A stretch of 64,000 nucleotides of DNA from Tessaracoccus aquimaris (GTDB lineage: Bacteria; Actinomycetota; Actinomycetes; Propionibacteriales; Propionibacteriaceae): contig NZ_CP019606.1 of the NCBI RefSeq assembly GCF_001997345.1, positions 3,162,001 through 3,226,000 of the forward strand. Reading direction: 5' to 3'. Positions 40,345 through 64,000 of this stretch are shown here, piece by piece. How positions within the stretch are numbered: the first letter of the stretch is position 1; each line of letters starts with the position of its first letter. The notes under the pieces are model-generated. The model saw only the letters and a program-made list of their open reading frames with translations, ran no database searches and had not been told where the DNA came from. Both the position numbers and the translations under genes were made by a program.

Positions 40345-40373
40345 GGCGGGGAGGGACACAGTCCCTCCCCGCC
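40345..40373 (+). terminator. Hairpin between backbone pilin and sortase, locus 1
   Basis: Perfect 13-bp stem GGCGGGGAGGGAC / GTCCCTCCCCGCC with a 3-base loop, 18 bp after the pilin stop. No T run. The equivalent hairpin occurs in locus 2. Likely an attenuator or mRNA-stability element that keeps sortase expression below pilin expression. Confidence 0.7.
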
Positions 40374-55779: not shown

Positions 55780-56528
55780 GAGATCACTCCAAACTGAACC
55801 AGCATCGGGATCGCCGCGTTACCGATCATGATGGCGAGCGCGAGGAACCCTCCGACGACAACCATCACCGCCCGCCAGCGCCTACCCATCACGCCCAGGT
55901 CGGCGACCATGGTCGCCGAGCCCTTGGCGATGTGCAGGCTCAGCAACACCATCACGGCGACGTAGAACCAGGCCATCAGCGGTCGCTGGAAGCTGGCGAC
56001 CAGGTTCTCGTAGGCGTGCGAGGTGCCCGCGGTGGCGTGCTCGAACGACTGCGTTGCGGCCGGTCCCACGCCGATCGTGAGGTCGAACAGGTGGACGAAG
56101 AGGAAGACGAGGAGCACGATGCCGGTGATCGGCATCAGCCAGGAGCCCCACGAACGGAGGCCGTGGAGCTTTGCCGGGTGTCGACCCCGAGCGCGACGCC
56201 CCCGCCACCACACGATCGCGGCGCTGCCGACGTGGGCGGTCAGCGAGACGATCAGCGCGATCCGCAGCAACCACAGGACGAACTCCTTGGGCAGCAACGG
56301 GTAGAACGCCTCCCGCAGCCAGGTCGCGTAGGCGTTGAAGGCGTCGGCGCCCTGGAAGACCTTGAGGTTGCCGAAGAGGTGGATCGCCACGAAGGCGACC
56401 CACAGCGCACCGGTGACGGCCATGGTCGCCTTGAGCGCCCAGCCGGGCAGCAGATGCGGGCGCCTTTGCCTCGCCGCCTTGCGGGGCGGGCCCACCTGGA
56501 TCGTCTCTGGCGTGTAGTCGGTGCTCAT
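55776..56528 (-). CDS. sdhC: Succinate dehydrogenase cytochrome b subunit (five-helix, type B)
   Basis: Membrane anchor of 250 residues with five hydrophobic helices and several conserved His (FVAIHLFGNLKVF, VSLTAHVGSA, LFVHLFDLTIG, LLSLHIAKGSA), the pattern of a diheme cytochrome b558-type anchor as in Bacillus and Wolinella. A single SdhC/D fused-type anchor, so the operon is sdhCAB. ATG at 56528 after GGGAGGTACCG. Confidence 0.95.
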   Translation of the reverse strand: MSTDYTPETIQVGPPRKAARQRRPHLLPGWALKATMAVTGALWVAFVAIHLFGNLKVFQGADAFNAYATWLREAFYPLLPKEFVLWLLRIALIVSLTAHVGSAAIVWWRGRRARGRHPAKLHGLRSWGSWLMPITGIVLLVFLFVHLFDLTIGVGPAATQSFEHATAGTSHAYENLVASFQRPLMAWFYVAVMVLLSLHIAKGSATMVADLGVMGRRWRAVMVVVGGFLALAIMIGNAAIPMLVQFGVIS

Positions 56529-56547
56529 CGGTACCTCCCTCGCTCGA

Positions 56548-56572
56548 CTCTATCCGAACAGGTCAGACCAGA
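56548..56572 (-). promoter_or_regulatory. sdhC promoter with a GntR/FadR-like site
   Basis: On the minus strand TAGAGT (complement of 56548-56553) is a -10-like box 20 bp upstream of the sdhC start. Just upstream, TCTGGTCTGACCTGTT (complement of 56557-56572) contains the palindrome GGTCTGACC. This closely resembles the FadR consensus of E. coli (CTGGTCCGACxTGTT). The core GGTCTGACCTGTT also occurs at 19420-19432 in the epimerase promoter. Regulator not in the window. Confidence 0.45.
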
Positions 56573-56611
56573 ATCGTCGGGGGTGCGTTGTACCATCACG
56601 AACGCTCGGTT

Positions 56612-56690
56612 CTCTGCTCCGCCTGGCGGAGGTGAGCCAATGGTTCGGAACGATTGAGCGTCCATCCCTGCCTTCGCGGGGTCAATGCCC
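56612..56690 (+). CRISPR. Solitary pseudo-CRISPR unit (repeat-like, short spacer, repeat-like) at the cas promoter
   Basis: Two degenerate type I-E repeat-like hairpins. First: stem CTCCGC / GCGGAG (56617-56622, 56626-56631) then the eight-base handle GTGAGCCA (56632-56639). Second: stem CCCTGC / GCGGGG (56666-56671, 56676-56681, one G-T wobble) with loop CTTC. In known I-E repeats the stem is six bases, loop three to four, then an eight-base handle, as here. The 21-nt pseudo-spacer (56640-56660) begins ATGGT. It pairs with the site at 56706-56726: ATGGT-x-CGGA-xx-GATTGA identical, mismatches at 6, 11 and 12. That site is preceded by AAC (a possible AAN PAM) and overlaps the cas -35 box. TACCAT (56591-56596) is a possible -10 for an RNA starting near 56602. 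Confidence 0.75.
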
Positions 56691-56719
56691 GAGTGATCCT
56701 GGAACATGGTACGGATAGA

Positions 56720-56748
56720 TTGACAGCTCGAATAACTTCGCCTAGCCT
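56720..56748 (+). promoter_or_regulatory. cas operon promoter
   Basis: Perfect -35 TTGACA (56720-56725), 17-bp spacer and -10 TAGCCT (56743-56748), the best sigma-A-type promoter of the window. Transcription would start near 56755, immediately before or within the Shine-Dalgarno of the 39-codon ORF. The pseudo-spacer target covers the -35 box. Confidence 0.75.
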
Positions 56749-56763
56749 GTAAGGGAGGCCGCA

Positions 56764-56883
56764 ATGAGGCGGCCAGTTAGGCAGCCTCCGATGATTCGAG
56801 CAATGACCCGCGGTCACTTAGCGACAAGATATCCGTCACCTCTGACAGATCTGGAGCCACCCCTCCTCGGGTGGATGGCGTGA
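56764..56883 (+). CDS. Putative 39-residue ORF between the cas promoter and cas3
   Basis: ATG at 56764 is preceded by AAGGGAGG (56751-56758) at ideal spacing. The product begins MRRPVRQPPMIRAMTRGH and ends LLGWMA; it is basic with six Arg and no resemblance to known Cas proteins. Its stop (56881-56883) is 5 bp before the cas3 ATG, so translation could be coupled. The second codon is AGG, and AGG recurs at codon 6. It may be a leader peptide, a small toxin guarded by the pseudo-CRISPR RNA (as in CreTA modules), or a fortuitous frame. Confidence 0.45.
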   Translation: MRRPVRQPPMIRAMTRGHLATRYPSPLTDLEPPLLGWMA

Positions 56884-56888
56884 TTCCA

Positions 56889-59633
56889 ATGGCTGATTGG
56901 AGCGAACGAGCTACCTCGTGTTGGGGCAAACTCCAGGGCAACGAGACGATGCACTTGCCGCTCGTGCGGCACCTCCAAGACGCCGGGGACGTGATGCGGG
57001 CGCTGTGGGCGCAGCAGCCCCGTAACGTGCGGCGACTCTTTGCCGAGTCGCTGGGCGGAGAGGACGCGGCCTGCGCCTTCGTCTGCTTTCTAGCGTCGGT
57101 CCACGACCTCGGTAAGGCGTCGCAGCATTTCGCCTTCAAAGCGTATCCAGCCGGCCGACCCGATGTCGCAGACGCCATGCGGGCAAATGGTCTCGACGTC
57201 CCACTTCACGTCGATCGTCCACGAGGCCACGCACTGCTGGGGCAGGCGCACCTCGTGGATTGGCTCGCACGACGCTACGCGGCGGACCCTCTGAAGGCCC
57301 AGCATCTCGGGGGTATCGTCGGCGGGCATCATGGAAGCAACCCCACCGACACGGAGCTTGTGGATGCGCGGATTGCTCTGAGGCAGGAGCCGCCAGGATG
57401 GGCCGAGGTGCGAGACGAGATCATGGACGTCTTCGCCACCCGAAGCGGGGCAGAGGCATATCTAGAGCAGTGGCTGTCCAAGCCGATTCCGGTCGAGGTT
57501 CAAGTCTTGACCATCGGGCTCGTCATCATGGCCGACTGGATCGCCAGCGACGAGTACCTCTTTCCCTACGGCCCACCCGAGGCCGACCGGGCCGAGAGGG
57601 CACTGGCCAAGCTCAACCTCCCCGGCGCCTGGTCACCCGTCGAGTCGGCCGGTGACCCAGACGAGCTGCTGCGATCCCGCTTTCCGAGGCTTGGGCCAAC
57701 GGCTCGGCTCAACGCCATGCAACGAGAGATGGTGAGGGTTGCCGAGGAGATGGAGACGCCCGGCCTCTTGCTGTTGGAGGCACCCATGGGTTCGGGCAAG
57801 ACGGAAGATGCCCTGCTTGCCGCCGAGATCCTTGCCCAACGATTCGGCTTGGGCGGCGTCTTCGTGGGCCTGCCGACTATGGCGACCTCCAACCCCATGT
57901 TCGCGCGCGTCAAGCATTGGCTGGATCATGTCCCGTCCGACGGCGTGACCAGCGTCAACCTTGCGCACAGCAAGGCTGGGCTCAACGACGAGTTCGCCGG
58001 TTTGATGCCGTGGGCGCGGACGGCGCCAGCCATCTACGACGACGAGGTGGGCACAAGGGAGGCCGCCGCGACGGTTCATGCCTGGTTCCTCGGCCGCAAG
58101 AAGGGGATGCTCGCGAACCACGTCATCGGCACGATCGACCAAGCGCTCTTCGCAGGGCTCAAGGCCAAGCACGTCGTACTGCGTCACCTCGGCCTCGCGA
58201 CCAAGGTGGTGATCATCGATGAGGTGCACGCGGCAGATTCGTATATGCGCACCTATCTGAAGCGCGTGCTCACCTGGCTTGGCCGATACGGCACTCCGGT
58301 GATCCTCATGTCTGCGACGCTTCCGCCGTCACAACGGGAGGAGTTGCTGCGGGCCTATGCCGATGGGCGTACGGGGAAGGTACAGCTTCCCACGACCGAC
58401 GGCTATCCCGTGATCCATGCCGTCGACGACGCCGGTGCGACCGCCGTTGGCGTCGAACTGGAGGGCAATGACGTCCACGTGGCCCTAACCACCATCGACG
58501 ACGGTATGGACAGCCTCGTCACCGAGGTGGGCCAGCGCATCGAGGATGGTGGTTGCGTTGGCGTCATCTGCAACACCGTGGCACGTGCGCAGGAGGTCTT
58601 CGACGTCCTCTCGAGGCGCCTCGACTGTGAGGTGGTGCTGCTTCACAGCCGCTTCCTCGCCCCGCACCGGGCCGCCCGTGAGGCCGACCTGGTTCGGCGC
58701 CTGGGCCCGTCGGGCGATAAGCGGCCGGATCAGATCGTCGTCGTGGGAACCCAGGTCCTTGAGCAATCCCTAGATATCGACTTCGACCTGATGATCACCG
58801 ATCTGGCGCCGGTCGACCTGATGCTGCAGCGCATCGGCAGGCTCCACCGTCACGACCGTTCCCGGCCGAAGGGCCTTGAACGTCCCGAGTGCCTCATTCG
58901 TGGGGTCGACGATTGGTTTACGGACCCTCCCGAGTTTCCCGGCGGTGCCGAGCGCATCTATGGGCGGGACTCGCTGCTGAGAAGCGCCGCGATTGTCGAG
59001 GACACCAGCTCGGTCGCGATCCCAAGGGATATCCCGACCTTGGTGGCCCGCGCCTACCAGATAACGCCCGACGTTCCTGAGGCGTGGGGGGCGGCCGCAC
59101 GCGAGGCGACCAAGGTAGCGTCTTGCGACCAGTCGTCCAAGGTGAGACGCGCCGGGGACTTCCTGCTCGATGACCCTCGGCGGAAGAGCAACCTCAATGC
59201 GCTCATCAACGGGCCCGCCTCCGATCCGGACGACTCACACGGCTATCGGCAAGTGCGCGACAGCGAGGACTCGCTCGAGGTGATCGTCGTCGTCGATGAC
59301 GGAGACGGCTACCGGGTGCCGGACGACGTTGGGCCGTACTCCGGAGGCTCGATCGGCTATTCCACCCCGGAAGGGCCGTTGGCCCGGGCGCTCGCCGCCT
59401 GCACGCTGGCGCTTCCGCACTCCCTCTCAGGGATGTGGATTGTCGACCGTGTGATCGATGAGTTGGAGGCTGCGGTCGACGTGAGTGCGTGGCAGGCCTC
59501 GCCGTGGCTCAAGGGTCAATTGGCCCTGGCCGTGTCTCCTGAGGGGGTCGGCGAGTTGGCCGGGAGACGCATTGTCTATGATCTCAGCCACGGACTCATC
59601 GTCGAGTCGGAGCAGAAAGCAATACGCCAATGA
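56889..59633 (+). CDS. cas3: Cas3 HD nuclease-helicase, type I-E
   Basis: Effector nuclease recruited by Cascade; 914 residues from the ATG at 56889 (MADWSERATSCWGKL). The HD domain has LPLVRHLQDAG, VHDLGKASQHF near residue 70 and GHHG; helicase domain has Walker A APMGSGKTED near 297, DEVH near 443 (VVIIDEVHAADSYM), SATLPPSQR motif III and QRIGRLHRH motif VI. C-terminal domain present, so the enzyme appears complete. In-frame alternatives at 56871 and 56880 lack Shine-Dalgarno support. First gene of the cas operon; overlaps cse1 by 4 bp. Confidence 0.95.
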   Translation: MADWSERATSCWGKLQGNETMHLPLVRHLQDAGDVMRALWAQQPRNVRRLFAESLGGEDAACAFVCFLASVHDLGKASQHFAFKAYPAGRPDVADAMRANGLDVPLHVDRPRGHALLGQAHLVDWLARRYAADPLKAQHLGGIVGGHHGSNPTDTELVDARIALRQEPPGWAEVRDEIMDVFATRSGAEAYLEQWLSKPIPVEVQVLTIGLVIMADWIASDEYLFPYGPPEADRAERALAKLNLPGAWSPVESAGDPDELLRSRFPRLGPTARLNAMQREMVRVAEEMETPGLLLLEAPMGSGKTEDALLAAEILAQRFGLGGVFVGLPTMATSNPMFARVKHWLDHVPSDGVTSVNLAHSKAGLNDEFAGLMPWARTAPAIYDDEVGTREAAATVHAWFLGRKKGMLANHVIGTIDQALFAGLKAKHVVLRHLGLATKVVIIDEVHAADSYMRTYLKRVLTWLGRYGTPVILMSATLPPSQREELLRAYADGRTGKVQLPTTDGYPVIHAVDDAGATAVGVELEGNDVHVALTTIDDGMDSLVTEVGQRIEDGGCVGVICNTVARAQEVFDVLSRRLDCEVVLLHSRFLAPHRAAREADLVRRLGPSGDKRPDQIVVVGTQVLEQSLDIDFDLMITDLAPVDLMLQRIGRLHRHDRSRPKGLERPECLIRGVDDWFTDPPEFPGGAERIYGRDSLLRSAAIVEDTSSVAIPRDIPTLVARAYQITPDVPEAWGAAAREATKVASCDQSSKVRRAGDFLLDDPRRKSNLNALINGPASDPDDSHGYRQVRDSEDSLEVIVVVDDGDGYRVPDDVGPYSGGSIGYSTPEGPLARALAACTLALPHSLSGMWIVDRVIDELEAAVDVSAWQASPWLKGQLALAVSPEGVGELAGRRIVYDLSHGLIVESEQKAIRQ

Positions 59634-61252
59634 CAGCGTCATTTAGTCTGATCAGCGCGCCCTGGATCCGGGTTCGAACAAGCACAGGGGCGATCGAAGA
59701 GGTATCGATCCGTGACGCCTTCCGCCGCGCGGGCGAGTTCATCGGACTCGCTGGCGAGATTCCCATGCAGGACATGGCGGTCCTCCGACTGTTGCTGGCC
59801 ATCGCCTATCGGGCCACCCATGACATTCGCAACGAAGACGAGGCGGTTGTGCTGTGGGGTTCGTGGTGGGCAGACGGTCTGCCTCTCGACCAGATCGATG
59901 CGTACCTCGATCAGTACGCGGCCCGCTTCGATCTGCTCGATGCCGATCGCCCCTTCTTCCAGGTTGCTGGCCTTCGCACCGAGAAGGGGAGCACCTCAGG
60001 GCTCGACAAACTCATCGCGGAGGTGCCGTCCGGTTCGAAGTTCTTCACCACGCGCGATGGGGCGGGGATCGAATCGCTTAGCTTGGCGGAGGCCGCCCGC
60101 TGGTTGGTCGCGCTCCACTCCAGCGACATCAGCGGCATCAAGTCGGGCGCGGTCGGCGACGATCGCGTCAAGGGCGGAAAGGGCTACCCAATCGGGACTG
60201 GCATCACCGGCCGTATCGGGCTGGTGGTCGCCGAGGGGGCTTCCCTTCGCGAGACGCTGCTGCTCAACCTTGTGCTTCCCATGTCGAGCGACGACGACTC
60301 CACACCGTGGGAGCGAAACCAGGACGATGCCGGAGAGAACTGGCTGCACTCCGAACTCACTGGGATCACCGACCTCTACACGTGGCAGACGCGTCGCGCG
60401 CGCCTGATCCTTAATGGCGATCACGTCGTCGACGCGTTGGTGTGCAACGGCGACAAGATCGGCCCGCAGAACCTGCAACGGTTCGAACCCATGTCGAGCT
60501 GGCGCTACAGCGAGCCGCAGACCAAGAAGCTGAAGCAGGACACGTGGATGCCCCGTACCCACAACCCGGCCAGGGCCATCTGGCGCGGACTTGAGCCGCT
60601 CCTGCAGAGGGACGTGCCTAACAGGAAGACGATCCGTCCTGCACTGTTCGACTGGGCGTCGCGGCTCCGGGAAAGCGGCGTCATCCCCCAAGACGCCCTG
60701 GTCTCGGTCAGGGTGGTCGGGTTCGAATACGGCCCCCAAGAGTCGAGCTTGGCGGCGGCGGTCGACGATTCGTTGCCCATGTCGGTGGCTCTCCTCGATG
60801 ACGAGTCACTTGCAGGCCTCGCCATCTGGGCGGCCGGGCTGGCGCAGTGGGCCGTCATAGACGTGGCGAACCTCGCGACCAATCTGGCCAGGGCCGCCGG
60901 GGTCGACCCGGGCCCACGACGCGACCAGGCCTTCACTGAGGCCTATGACGCGGTGGACCCCCTTTACCGACGCTGGGTGCGCGACCTGACGTCTGATTCG
61001 AGCATCCCCGAGCGGGAGGGTGCCTGGAGGACGGCGGTCAGGCAGCGGATGACCGTGCTCGGTGGCGACATGTGCCGAGACGGGGGGCGCGCCGCCGTGG
61101 TGGGCCGCACGGACCCAGCCACCGGGCAGGCCATGGACACGGCGCGAGCGTGGAGCATCTTCCTGACCCAACTGCGCCGACACACGAGCACGGACGGCGC
61201 GGCGACACTGCAATCGGAGGCGGACGCTGACGAGGAGGAATCGAATGAATGA
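59630..61252 (+). CDS. cse1: Cse1/CasA (Cas8e) large subunit of type I-E Cascade
   Basis: PAM-sensing large subunit, 540 residues. Starts MTASFSLISAPWIRVRTSTG (typical family start FSLI..PWI.V). Contains VLRLLLAIAYRA, the FFQVAGL segment, and GYPIGTGITGRIGLVV, a recurrent Cse1 pattern. C-terminal four-helix bundle expected after residue about 370. Overlaps cas3 by ATGA and cse2 by 8 bp. Confidence 0.93.
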   Translation: MTASFSLISAPWIRVRTSTGAIEEVSIRDAFRRAGEFIGLAGEIPMQDMAVLRLLLAIAYRATHDIRNEDEAVVLWGSWWADGLPLDQIDAYLDQYAARFDLLDADRPFFQVAGLRTEKGSTSGLDKLIAEVPSGSKFFTTRDGAGIESLSLAEAARWLVALHSSDISGIKSGAVGDDRVKGGKGYPIGTGITGRIGLVVAEGASLRETLLLNLVLPMSSDDDSTPWERNQDDAGENWLHSELTGITDLYTWQTRRARLILNGDHVVDALVCNGDKIGPQNLQRFEPMSSWRYSEPQTKKLKQDTWMPRTHNPARAIWRGLEPLLQRDVPNRKTIRPALFDWASRLRESGVIPQDALVSVRVVGFEYGPQESSLAAAVDDSLPMSVALLDDESLAGLAIWAAGLAQWAVIDVANLATNLARAAGVDPGPRRDQAFTEAYDAVDPLYRRWVRDLTSDSSIPEREGAWRTAVRQRMTVLGGDMCRDGGRAAVVGRTDPATGQAMDTARAWSIFLTQLRRHTSTDGAATLQSEADADEEESNE

Positions 61253-61892
61253 CGAGAAGCTAGACGCAAAACCATGGATCGAGACGGGCAGGTTCGTCGG
61301 GTCCCAGGCGTCGAGGCTGCAAGCGGGTTACACGCGTTCTCCACGCGACGACTGGTCGCAGCGGACTCTGGCGCAACTGCGCAGGGCGGACGCGTCGCTG
61401 CCTGGCGCCGACCCCGTTCTGTGGCAGGTGACCCTCGACGGCCTGCCCGAGTCCGTTCGGGGCACCGGCGACGCGCCCAGCTACGGCGAGGCGGCCGCTC
61501 ATGCCGCCCTCGTGATGTACGCGATCCACCAGCAGTCGAAGTCCGAACCCATGCACCGGCAGGGCGTCGGGCTGGGGCAGGCGGTGCGGGACCTCGCGCG
61601 CGTCCGATCCGGTGATGGCACGCTGGAGCCGGGCGTCCTGTCGCGCTTCCATGCCTTGGTGCGGGCCCAGTCCCGAGCGGCGCGTCTCTACTCCCTGCGT
61701 GCGCTGGTCGGGTTGCTGCGGGCCGAGTCGATCCCGCTGGACTACGGACGACTTGCCACCGACCTCTGGCTCCTCGATAACAAGAAGTCTGACGGTGTTC
61801 GACTCCGTTGGGGCCGCCAACTCCATCTCCACAAACCATCCGCCGAACCAACCGATGCAACCGACGCTCCCACCGAAGGAAAGAACTCGTGA
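61245..61892 (+). CDS. cse2: Cse2/CasB (Cas11e) small subunit
   Basis: Helical small subunit of 215 residues. ARADASLPGADPVLWQVTL-type motif (here LRRADASLPGADPVLWQ), AALVMYAIHQQSK, RFHALVRAQ and DYGRLATDLWLLDN...VRLRWGRQLH, the ending motif of CasB proteins. Overlaps cas7 by 4 bp. Confidence 0.93.
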   Translation: MNDEKLDAKPWIETGRFVGSQASRLQAGYTRSPRDDWSQRTLAQLRRADASLPGADPVLWQVTLDGLPESVRGTGDAPSYGEAAAHAALVMYAIHQQSKSEPMHRQGVGLGQAVRDLARVRSGDGTLEPGVLSRFHALVRAQSRAARLYSLRALVGLLRAESIPLDYGRLATDLWLLDNKKSDGVRLRWGRQLHLHKPSAEPTDATDAPTEGKNS

Positions 61893-63013
61893 CCGCCTAC
61901 TACCTCGACATCCACGTCCTGCAGAGCGTCCCGCCGAGCAACGTCAACCGCGACGACACAGGTGCGCCGAAGAGCGCCCTCTATGGAGGCGTGCGCCGAG
62001 CCCGGGTGAGCAGCCAGGCGTGGAAGAAGGCCGTGCGCGCCAGCTTCGACGAGTTCGTCGACCCGGAGAAGCGCGGCGTGCGGACCTTGCGCGTGATTGA
62101 ACTCCTCGTCGATCGGATGAAGGAGATGAAGGTCGACCTGCCAGTGGACGAGATGGTCGCCCGCGCCGTCAAGGTGGTCGGCGCGCTGGGGCTCAAGACC
62201 GAGAAGCCCCGGGTCAAGAAGGATGAGCCCGAGAAGATCGAGCGCTCCCAATACCTGATCTTCTTCAGCCGTCACCAGCTCGACCGCTTGGCCGAGCTGG
62301 CGGCTACGGCCGAAGGAGCGGTCACGAAGCGCGATGCCCAGCAAGCGGCAGACACGGACCACGGCATCGATGTGAGCCTATTCGGCCGCATGGTCGCCGA
62401 CTCGAAGGACCTCAATGTCGACTCGGCGGTGCAGGTCGCCCACGCCATCAGCACCCATGCGGCGGAGACCGAGGCCGACTACTTCACGGCCGTTGACGAC
62501 TACAAGCTCGACGAGGACGACGCGGGTGCCGGAATGATCGGCACCATCGAGTTCAACTCGTCCACGCTTTACCGGTTCGCCACCGTCAGCCTCACCGAGC
62601 TGTTGCACAACCTCGGCGATGTCGGTCTCACCGCCGAGGCGGCGGCGGCCTTCGTGCAGGGCTTCATCGTCTCGATGCCCACCGGTAAGCAGAACACCTT
62701 TGGCAACAACACGTTGCCAGACGCCGTCCTTGTGCAGCTGAGGGAGGGTCGCTCGGTGAGCTACGTGGGTGCGTTCGAGGCTGCCGTGGAGGCCGACGGC
62801 GGCTACGTCCGTCCCTCGGTGGACGCGCTGGCTAAGCACGTGACGGAGCTTCAGAAGAGCTTCCTCGACTCGGCGGCCGTCTCGCTCGTGACCCGAACGG
62901 CAAACGCCGGTGTCGCCTTGGATCAGTTGGGTGAGGTGGTCTCGCTGCTCGAGCTCGTCGACCGCTCCCGCGAAGCCGCCGCCGCGGTGCTTGCCGATCA
63001 GGCGTCCTCGTGA
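61889..63013 (+). CDS. cas7e: Cas7e/CasC (Cse4) backbone subunit
   Basis: crRNA-binding backbone protein, 374 residues from the GTG at 61889 (GTGA overlap with cse2). N terminus YYLDIHVLQSVPPSNVNRDDTGAPKSALYGGVRRARVSSQAWKKA (in parts) is canonical. A frame extending upstream overlaps cse2 and is not coding. C-terminal motif with FVQGFIVSMPTGKQNTFGNNTLPDAVLVQL. Confidence 0.95.
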   Translation: MTAYYLDIHVLQSVPPSNVNRDDTGAPKSALYGGVRRARVSSQAWKKAVRASFDEFVDPEKRGVRTLRVIELLVDRMKEMKVDLPVDEMVARAVKVVGALGLKTEKPRVKKDEPEKIERSQYLIFFSRHQLDRLAELAATAEGAVTKRDAQQAADTDHGIDVSLFGRMVADSKDLNVDSAVQVAHAISTHAAETEADYFTAVDDYKLDEDDAGAGMIGTIEFNSSTLYRFATVSLTELLHNLGDVGLTAEAAAAFVQGFIVSMPTGKQNTFGNNTLPDAVLVQLREGRSVSYVGAFEAAVEADGGYVRPSVDALAKHVTELQKSFLDSAAVSLVTRTANAGVALDQLGEVVSLLELVDRSREAAAAVLADQASS

Positions 63014-63696
63014 CCGTGCTGCTGCTCCGGCTCGCCGGACCGCTGCAATCGTGGGGTGACTCCAGCCGGTTCACTGTCCGCTCGACCCGGCACGAGCCAA
63101 CCAAATCCGGGGTGCTCGGGCTGCTTGCCGCCGCGCAGGGGCGTCGCCGCACCGACAGCATCGAGGACCTCCTCCAGCTTCGGTTCGGCGTTCGTGCCGA
63201 CCAACCTGGAACGGTGGTGCGCGACTTCCACACGGCTCACGACCAGGCCGGCGCGTCGATGCCGCTGTCACACCGCTACTACCTTTCGGATGCGGTTTTC
63301 GTGGCGGGTATCGAGGGGGAGCAGGCACTGCTTGAGGCGCTTCTGGCCGCCGTGGAACGGCCCGAATTTCCCCTCTATTTGGGTCGCCGCGCCTGTCCTG
63401 TCGAGGGGAAACTGGCCCTCGGACTGAGGGAAGGCGGGTTGGACGACGCATTGTCGACCGAACCGTGGCAGGCCGCCCCGTGGCACCGCAAGCGGATGCC
63501 GACTGTCGTCACCCTCGATGTCCACACCGACTCGGCGCCAGAAGCTCCGGGCGAGGACGTACGTGACGTGCCTCTGAGCTTCGATCCCTCTCGTCGCGAG
63601 TATGGCTGGCGAACGGTCGCCTCATCCGCGATCCAGTTGCGAAACGACGTTGGTACCGACGAGCCGGATTGGCTCGCTGCACTTGGAGATGGCTGA
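63010..63696 (+). CDS. cas5e: Cas5e/CasD
   Basis: RAMP protein of 228 residues that holds the crRNA 5' handle. LLLRLAGPLQSWGDSSRFTVR at the start, TKSGVLGLLAAAQGR, HRYYLSDAVFVAGIEG, PLYLGRRACPV, all standard Cas5e blocks. GTGA overlap with cas7. Confidence 0.95.
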   Translation: MTVLLLRLAGPLQSWGDSSRFTVRSTRHEPTKSGVLGLLAAAQGRRRTDSIEDLLQLRFGVRADQPGTVVRDFHTAHDQAGASMPLSHRYYLSDAVFVAGIEGEQALLEALLAAVERPEFPLYLGRRACPVEGKLALGLREGGLDDALSTEPWQAAPWHRKRMPTVVTLDVHTDSAPEAPGEDVRDVPLSFDPSRREYGWRTVASSAIQLRNDVGTDEPDWLAALGDG

Positions 63697-64000
63697 TGTT
63701 CCTTAGCGAGTTCGACATCAACGGGGGGCGTCGGTCCGCCCGGCATCTGCTGGCCTCGCGCGAGCGGCTGCACGCGGCCGTGCTCGGCTGCTTTCCGCCC
63801 GGTCAGTCGAGTGACGGTGAGTCTCGCGCGCTCTGGCGCCTTGACGTCAGCTCGAGCCACGCGATCAAGCTGCTGCTCGTGAGCGGCCTGCGGCCCGACT
63901 TCACGGCCCTCAACGAGCAGGCGGGCTGGAACACGGGCGCCCCGGCGCGAACCGCCAACTACGACGGTTTCCTGGAGCGCCTGACCCCCGGTCAGTCGTG
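63696..64000 (+). CDS. cas6e: Cas6e/CasE (Cse3) crRNA-processing endonuclease, partial
   Basis: ATG at 63696 overlaps the cas5 stop (TGATG). The visible 101 residues begin MFLSEFDINGGRRSARHLLASRERLHAAVLGCF, where HLLASRERLHAAVLG matches Cas6e and contains the His of the active site region (His26 equivalent in E. coli-type enzymes). ALWRLDVSSSHAIKLLLVS follows. Ends at the window edge; cas1, cas2 and the array are presumably beyond it. Confidence 0.93.
   Translation, partial: MFLSEFDINGGRRSARHLLASRERLHAAVLGCFPPGQSSDGESRALWRLDVSSSHAIKLLLVSGLRPDFTALNEQAGWNTGAPARTANYDGFLERLTPGQS

Follow-up and report, generated by a model that had tools for sequence, protein, structure and literature searches.

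A candidate CreR gene upstream of a type I-E cas operon in a member of the Propionibacteriaceae

CreR, a cas-regulating RNA, was reportedly described by Liu et al. in 2023 (Cell Host Microbe 31:1481). The RNA is covered in three reviews (PMC12737573, PMC12948488 and PMC13131331), and in excerpt the last of these reports it in types I-B, I-E and V-A, so an element of the kind considered here is already known for type I-E (PMC13131331). Here we analyzed positions 3162001-3226000 of a 3.93-Mb chromosome from a member of the Propionibacteriaceae; this whole 64-kb stretch is called the window below. Near its end lies a two-repeat mini-CRISPR that we interpret, with a probability of roughly 0.88, as a CreR gene whose predicted product, a crRNA-like RNA, would repress the cas operon by directing the strain's own type I-E Cascade to the promoter of cas3.

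The locus holds a complete type I-E cas operon and an array. Reading along the + strand, minus-strand genes that by eye resemble a succinate dehydrogenase operon are followed by the element, then by the predicted promoter and a 39-codon ORF, and after these by cas3, casA, casB, cas7, cas5, cas6e, cas1, cas2 and the array. Within the window, all on the + strand, the cas3 ORF spans 56871-59633 (probable start, ATG at 56889), casA/cse1 59630-61252 (TIGR02547), casB/cse2 61245-61892 (TIGR02548), the cas7 ORF 61808-63013 (probable start at 61889; TIGR01869), cas5e 63010-63696 (TIGR01868) and cas6e 63669-64000, which runs past the window end (basis, L002:7669-9701). Downstream of cas6e and past the window edge come cas1, cas2 and the array, which carries about 90 copies of the repeat GTCCCTCCCCGCCAAGCGGGGGTGAGCCC and spacers of 32 nt in 83 of the 85 measured. 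An exact copy of the repeat's first 13 bases is also present on each strand at 40345-40373, distant from the cas locus; the two copies form an inverted pair, perhaps an ordinary hairpin.

The element consists of repeat-like sequences akin to the strain's own CRISPR repeat, located outside the array and adjoining the cas genes. The decayed first repeat, psiR1 (56611-56639, + strand), contains the stem CTCCGC-CTG-GCGGAG at 56617-56631 followed by the 8-nt handle GTGAGCCA at 56632-56639. When compared with the true repeat, the hairpin is kept except that a single C-G pair has become T-A, and the handle agrees at 7/7 bases. Across the 64 kb, both strands, psiR1 is the top match to repeat nt 7-29 (18/23, with the runner-up at 16/23). 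The pseudo-spacer, or guide, occupies 56640-56659 on the + strand and is 20 nt long, or 32 minus 12. The decayed second repeat, psiR2 (56660-56688, + strand), opens with GTCCAT at 56660 and continues into the stem CCCTGC-CTTC-GCGGGG at 56666-56681; it keeps the hairpin of the true repeat as well as most of its 5' end, and has lost the handle, which agrees at only 2/7 bases. With its 20-nt pseudo-spacer and decayed repeats, the element does not have the near-identical repeats and 32-33-nt spacers of a true type I-E array. A putative -10 of a creR promoter, TACCAT, is present at 56591-56596 (+ strand), with no good -35 seen, and a promoter and terminator scan found nothing. An Rfam scan of 56400-57000 returned two sub-threshold hits only, and the window RNA folds no better than shuffles (z -0.93), its best fold pairing the handle with the guide.

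The target protospacer lies at 56706-56725 (+ strand), directly preceded by the PAM AAC at 56703-56705, and begins 66 nt past the first base of the pseudo-spacer. The first 18 nt of the guide, ATGGTTCGGAACGATTGA, match ATGGTACGGATAGATTGA at 15 positions, with mismatches at 6, 11 and 12, a score reached by 4 of 20,000 shuffles of the 18-mer in a 1.26-kb region searched on both strands. The sequence AANATGGTNCGGA was found once in the genome, and so was AAN plus the seed; the latter count shows only the absence of a second site, because a reversed control pattern also occurred once and about two are expected by chance. The pseudo-spacer is also near-palindromic over 56640-56657, matching its own minus strand at 56654 in 14/17 positions with the flank TCA rather than AAN. 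In E. coli, repeat base 29 derives from the PAM. Provided that the same holds here, the AAC PAM fits the array repeat, of which base 29 is C in 87 of 89 copies. In blastn searches of arrays for phage matches to their spacers, usable protospacers were not obtained (the window's own array had no match, and others had only pieces 67-77% identical), and the PAM argument therefore rests on the CreR targets and on repeat base 29.

The predicted cas3 promoter (56720-56748, + strand) combines a -35 hexamer, TTGACA, at 56720-56725 with a -10 hexamer, TAGCCT, at 56743-56748 after 17 nt. A sigma-70 scan of 56529-56900, which demands four of six matches to TATAAT where TAGCCT has three, reported no promoter. 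Because this stricter scan missed TAGCCT, the promoter call rests on inspection by eye and on the -10 stretch of a sister species (L034), which aligns with one difference. An earlier note, made from the letters alone, had described two hairpins of repeat geometry flanking a pseudo-spacer, and the stem and handle that the true repeats share with psiR1 bear this out. Its account of a 15/18 match mismatched at 6, 11 and 12, flanked by AAC, 66 nt downstream and overlapping TTGACA-17-TAGCCT can be read directly from the sequence. The length of 21 nt that it gave the pseudo-spacer, 11 short of normal, needs correction, as the borders of the true repeat give 20 nt, 12 short.

A related cas3 was present in 42 of 198 Propionibacteriaceae genomes, and 41 of these were examined (G127 was left out). 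We found a handle-hairpin unit with an AAN-flanked match in 22 of the 41 cas3 upstream regions, with guides and targets that differ among them: the window, L034, L037-L039, L041, L044-L046, L054, L056-L059, L062, L063, L065, L066 and L069-L072. The least sure are L054, on the opposite strand, and L034, whose match breaks down beyond nt 9; L062, L063 and L065 have a weak psiR1 hairpin. By the criteria used, no such unit was detected in the remaining 19 family loci, three of which have <400 nt of upstream sequence. Weaker candidates in L035, L040, L042, L043, L047, L048, L053, L063, L064 and L073 were dropped by eye, as were second candidates in L069, L070 and L072. Inspection of the Cutibacterium group indicated that four of seven members keep the unit, that it has decayed in L043 with hairpin and handle gone, and that L040 and L042 have none; these three are possibly recent losses.

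A wider survey used handle, hairpin and seed match, criteria looser than those of the target-blind test described below. Outside the Propionibacteriaceae, units were found in 2 of 75 loci (L110, Streptomyces katrae; L136, Specibacter cremeus), and ten other candidates among those 75 were dropped by eye, two as repeat copies and eight without AAN. Units were also found in 2 of 28 class loci (L164, L179), where seven candidates were dropped, one as a repeat copy and the remainder as weak; in 2 of 13 further loci of the G335 family (L189, L190; L185 dropped); and in 6 of 24 loci of the G539 family (L197, L200, L201, L202, L217, L219; L207 dropped). Among the 19 loci listed for the G446 family, of 76 genomes with a match, there were none, and L230 was dropped as a repeat copy. 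The L197 guide equals that of L136, and the L219 guide that of L201. The target is on the other strand in L054, L164, L201 and L202. In L164, two tandem AAC-flanked matches for a single guide lie on the minus strand, about 334 and 379 nt upstream of cas3. As a raw count, 20 of 24 units have a TANNNT motif 20-63 nt before the handle; L056, L057 and L058 have none, and in L110 it lies at -65.

Guides and targets change together in these relatives. In the sister species, both have been replaced, and the stems, the handle and the -10 region are kept. Guide nt 1-18 are identical in L037 and L041, and their targets differ within nt 1-13 solely at positions 6 and 12. Over 20 loci, 132 of 140 handle bases are kept in psiR1 compared with 64 of 140 in psiR2.

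We considered that the guide could instead act as an antitoxin of the CreTA type, silencing a promoter that drives a toxic RNA or a small ORF, so that the cell would be addicted to Cascade and cas3 repression would be a by-product. The 39-codon ORF at 56764-56883 (+ strand), between the predicted promoter and cas3, would be the candidate: a GGGAGG stretch precedes its ATG, it overlaps the GTG at 56871, and a 38-codon ORF occupies the equivalent place in the sister species. In CreTA loci, the target lies upstream of the CreA unit, an order also seen in L046, from the same genus as the window, where the target is 332 nt and the handle 246 nt upstream of the Cas3 match. However, the 39- and 38-codon ORFs are dissimilar by eye, and in L037, L038, L039 and L041 of the Cutibacterium group 83-89 nt separate the target from the Cas3 match downstream, hardly enough space for a toxin gene. 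We consider an antitoxin improbable, and the 39-codon ORF is possibly a translated leader.

For the CreR reading, the evidence from relatives is decisive. The units surveyed above were found with scores that ignored positions 6, 12 and 18, and the family, class, G335 and G539 surveys also used a PAM rule. Pair counts exclude L057, a duplicate of L056, and mismatch profiles exclude L034, L038, L045 and L190, in which the AAN site differs from the plain best match. For 24 units, the plain best site was AAN-flanked in 21 (12 AAC, 4 AAT, 4 AAG, 1 AAA), and guide-region swaps, the control for these units, gave AAN in 16 of 536 (16 close within-group pairs excluded). Mismatches at positions 6 and 12 compared with the others were 31/40 and 10/200 in 20 pairs, 27/36 and 10/180 with one pair per seed cluster (18 clusters), and 44/54 and 14/270 in 27 pairs. 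Because the search ignored 6, 12 and 18 or applied a PAM rule, these profiles alone are possibly biased, but the pattern holds in a target-blind test.

For that test, we chose units from 200 loci (41 Propionibacteriaceae plus 75 and 84 further loci) by the handle, the psiR1 hairpin and the psiR2 hairpin alone, ignoring targets. Those with an intact second-repeat handle were set aside as array-like (99 of 146), which left 41 distinct units, and the best site for each was taken from plain matches in nt 1-17 on both strands without a PAM rule. At least 13/17 was reached by 21 of the 41, with an AAN flank in 18 of the 21. Mismatches in these 21 units at positions 1 to 18 numbered 0, 2, 0, 0, 0, 16, 0, 3, 5, 3, 4, 16, 0, 1, 4, 6, 4 and 16. 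Positions 6 and 12 were mismatched in 32/42 cases, about the random rate, compared with 17/210 at the other ten positions of nt 1-12 (Fisher 1e-19). Cascade turns crRNA bases 6, 12, 18, 24 and 30 outwards, according to the excerpted text of PMC5965380. Thus, target-blind mismatches concentrate at Cascade's flipped bases 6 and 12. As a control, we examined 97 distinct array-like units from the same regions; ten reached 13/17, and none of the ten had an AAN flank. Leaving positions 6, 12 and 18 unscored gave 30 AAN-flanked loci among 73 with a hit, and the five other phases gave 4-9 among 40-62. To our knowledge, the 6/12 mismatch pattern is predicted only by pairing of the guide within Cascade. 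Three units, L084, L103 and L192, have a match of at least 13/17 without AAN. The L192 unit lies 241 nt upstream of the Cas3 match and matches at 14/17, with mismatches at 6, 12, 15 and 18 and the flank TAC.

No match of at least 13/17 was found for 20 of the 41 target-blind units, and these may be relics. If the element in the window were likewise the relic of a true mini-array whose promoter match is accidental, then decayed psiR1 and psiR2 sequences and a non-array pseudo-spacer length would be expected. AAN-flanked matches near cas3 nevertheless recur with different guides and with mismatches at 6 and 12, a pattern that is absent from swapped guides and array-like units, and we regard a relic as very improbable. 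Taken together, sequence comparison across relatives indicates that the guide-target match is kept by selection. The earlier note's proposal that mismatches fall on unpaired every-sixth bases extends to units chosen without reference to their targets, and the co-variation for which it had looked to related genomes was found there, with matching retained while both sequences change. Its suggestion of a CreR-type regulator of a type I-E system is supported by the repeat likeness and by the relatives.

Overlap between target and promoter is clear in the window and is not general among relatives. In the window and several relatives, a -35-like hexamer begins inside the target, 0-14 nt from the target start; it lies 24 nt downstream in L069 and L070 and 40-48 nt downstream in L056, L057 and L058. 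The blocking geometry varies, because the targets of L056 and L058 are upstream of the best -35-like box and a simple-rule promoter scan found no promoter near the target for 8 of 23 units. The L056 and L058 arrangement would suit an activator or positioning element, with Cascade at or upstream of a -35 box raising transcription or shifting its start, but this is barely credible given that the -35 hexamer of the window sits within the 20-bp target and that several relatives have a -35-like hexamer beginning 0-4 nt into theirs.

Returning to the element as a CreR gene, we measured pseudo-spacer length from the position of the psiR2 hairpin in 27 units (the identical L057 omitted), assuming a 5-nt flank in place of the border given by the own repeat for L110, L136, L054, L179, L164, L189, L190 and four units added later. 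The 27 units fell at 20-22 nt (17 units), 32-34 nt (8), 38 nt (1) and 44 nt (1), with the other three residues modulo six empty. The later four gave 32, 21 and 20 nt and, for L202, an ambiguous value (45 by script, 20 by eye when aligned with L201). Array spacers were mainly 32 nt in 21 of 21 loci checked. Simulation with uniform lengths reproduced the classes in 0 of 100,000 trials for 31 independent units and in 0.7% for 10; as species are not independent, we claim no firm p-value. A possible rule is that pseudo-spacer lengths differ from 32 by multiples of six (+0-2), as though Cas7 subunits set the length. In type I-F1, the spacer length is 6N-4, with 20 and 44 nt corresponding to four and eight Cas7 (PMC7296934, in excerpt). 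We offer the ruler as a hypothesis, because shared ancestry weakens the count and 25 of the 27 units belong to just two modes, 20-22 and 32-34. We give even odds to its full form, in which a Cascade ruler sets CreR guide length at 20, 32, 38 or 44 nt (+0 to 2), giving 4, 6, 7 or 8 Cas7, dedicated small and large Cascades evolve for gene control, and bases 6 and 12 drift freely because they are never read.

In the mechanism that we propose, transcription would start at about 56603 and Cas6e would cut after each hairpin. Cascade would then assemble on the 20-nt guide, with four Cas7 rather than six if the 6N-4 relation of type I-F1 applies, and at the -35 box it would block RNA polymerase. Cleavage would not be expected with only about 14-18 nt paired. 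Repression would be relieved once array crRNAs or anti-CRISPR proteins occupy Cascade; as excerpted, a review names array crRNA supply or anti-CRISPR proteins as relieving CreR repression (PMC12737573). Binding without cleavage had previously been attributed to the short spacer. Excerpted reports describe repression without cutting by short type I-B guides (PMC10989794, PMC10551041) and, for type I-E, Cascades shortened by 6 or 12 that retain slowed Cas3 degradation (PMC7296934), which weakens that attribution; the short complementarity is the better reason. Whether the pseudo-spacer is short or long (13 and 7 pairs), complementarity gives out around nt 14-17, so that what probably guards against cleavage is incomplete pairing and not the length of the guide. 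These loci are a natural data set, as guide and target have changed in concert many times; if the reading is correct, evolution reveals in them how Cascade pairs on DNA, with bases 1-5, 7-11 and 13-14 counting and bases 6 and 12 not. The use of non-standard Cascade sizes for regulation becomes testable, and a sequence rule is offered for finding further regulators.

The comparison with known systems draws on excerpts of the papers cited. Like CreR, the element is a mini-CRISPR with an RNA, here predicted, partly complementary to a cas promoter, and its spacer-like segment is in part complementary to the predicted cas promoter, next to a PAM; its 20-nt guide sets it apart. It shares with CreA of CreTA (type I-B, haloarchaea; PMC9458426) a psiR1 that keeps the Cas5-binding handle, a psiR2 that loses it and a partial match directing Cascade to a promoter, but here the promoter leads into cas3 via the 39-codon ORF and no toxin was identified. 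In the long-form tracrRNA autorepression of Cas9 (type II-A; PMC8730458), a repurposed guide RNA likewise sends an effector to its own cas promoter, although that effector is class 2 and its guide is tracrRNA-derived with a 9-bp match. Engineered short-spacer repression also uses shortened guides that repress without cleaving, but these are designed and type I-B (PMC10989794, PMC10551041), and shortened type I-E guides are reported to keep slow degradation (PMC7296934). Among the matches listed in a search of open-licence literature, none dealt with CreR in Propionibacteriaceae or with pseudo-spacer length classes. We conclude that what is new relative to these systems is the presence of such an element in a member of the Propionibacteriaceae, the guide-target co-variation and a possible length rule.
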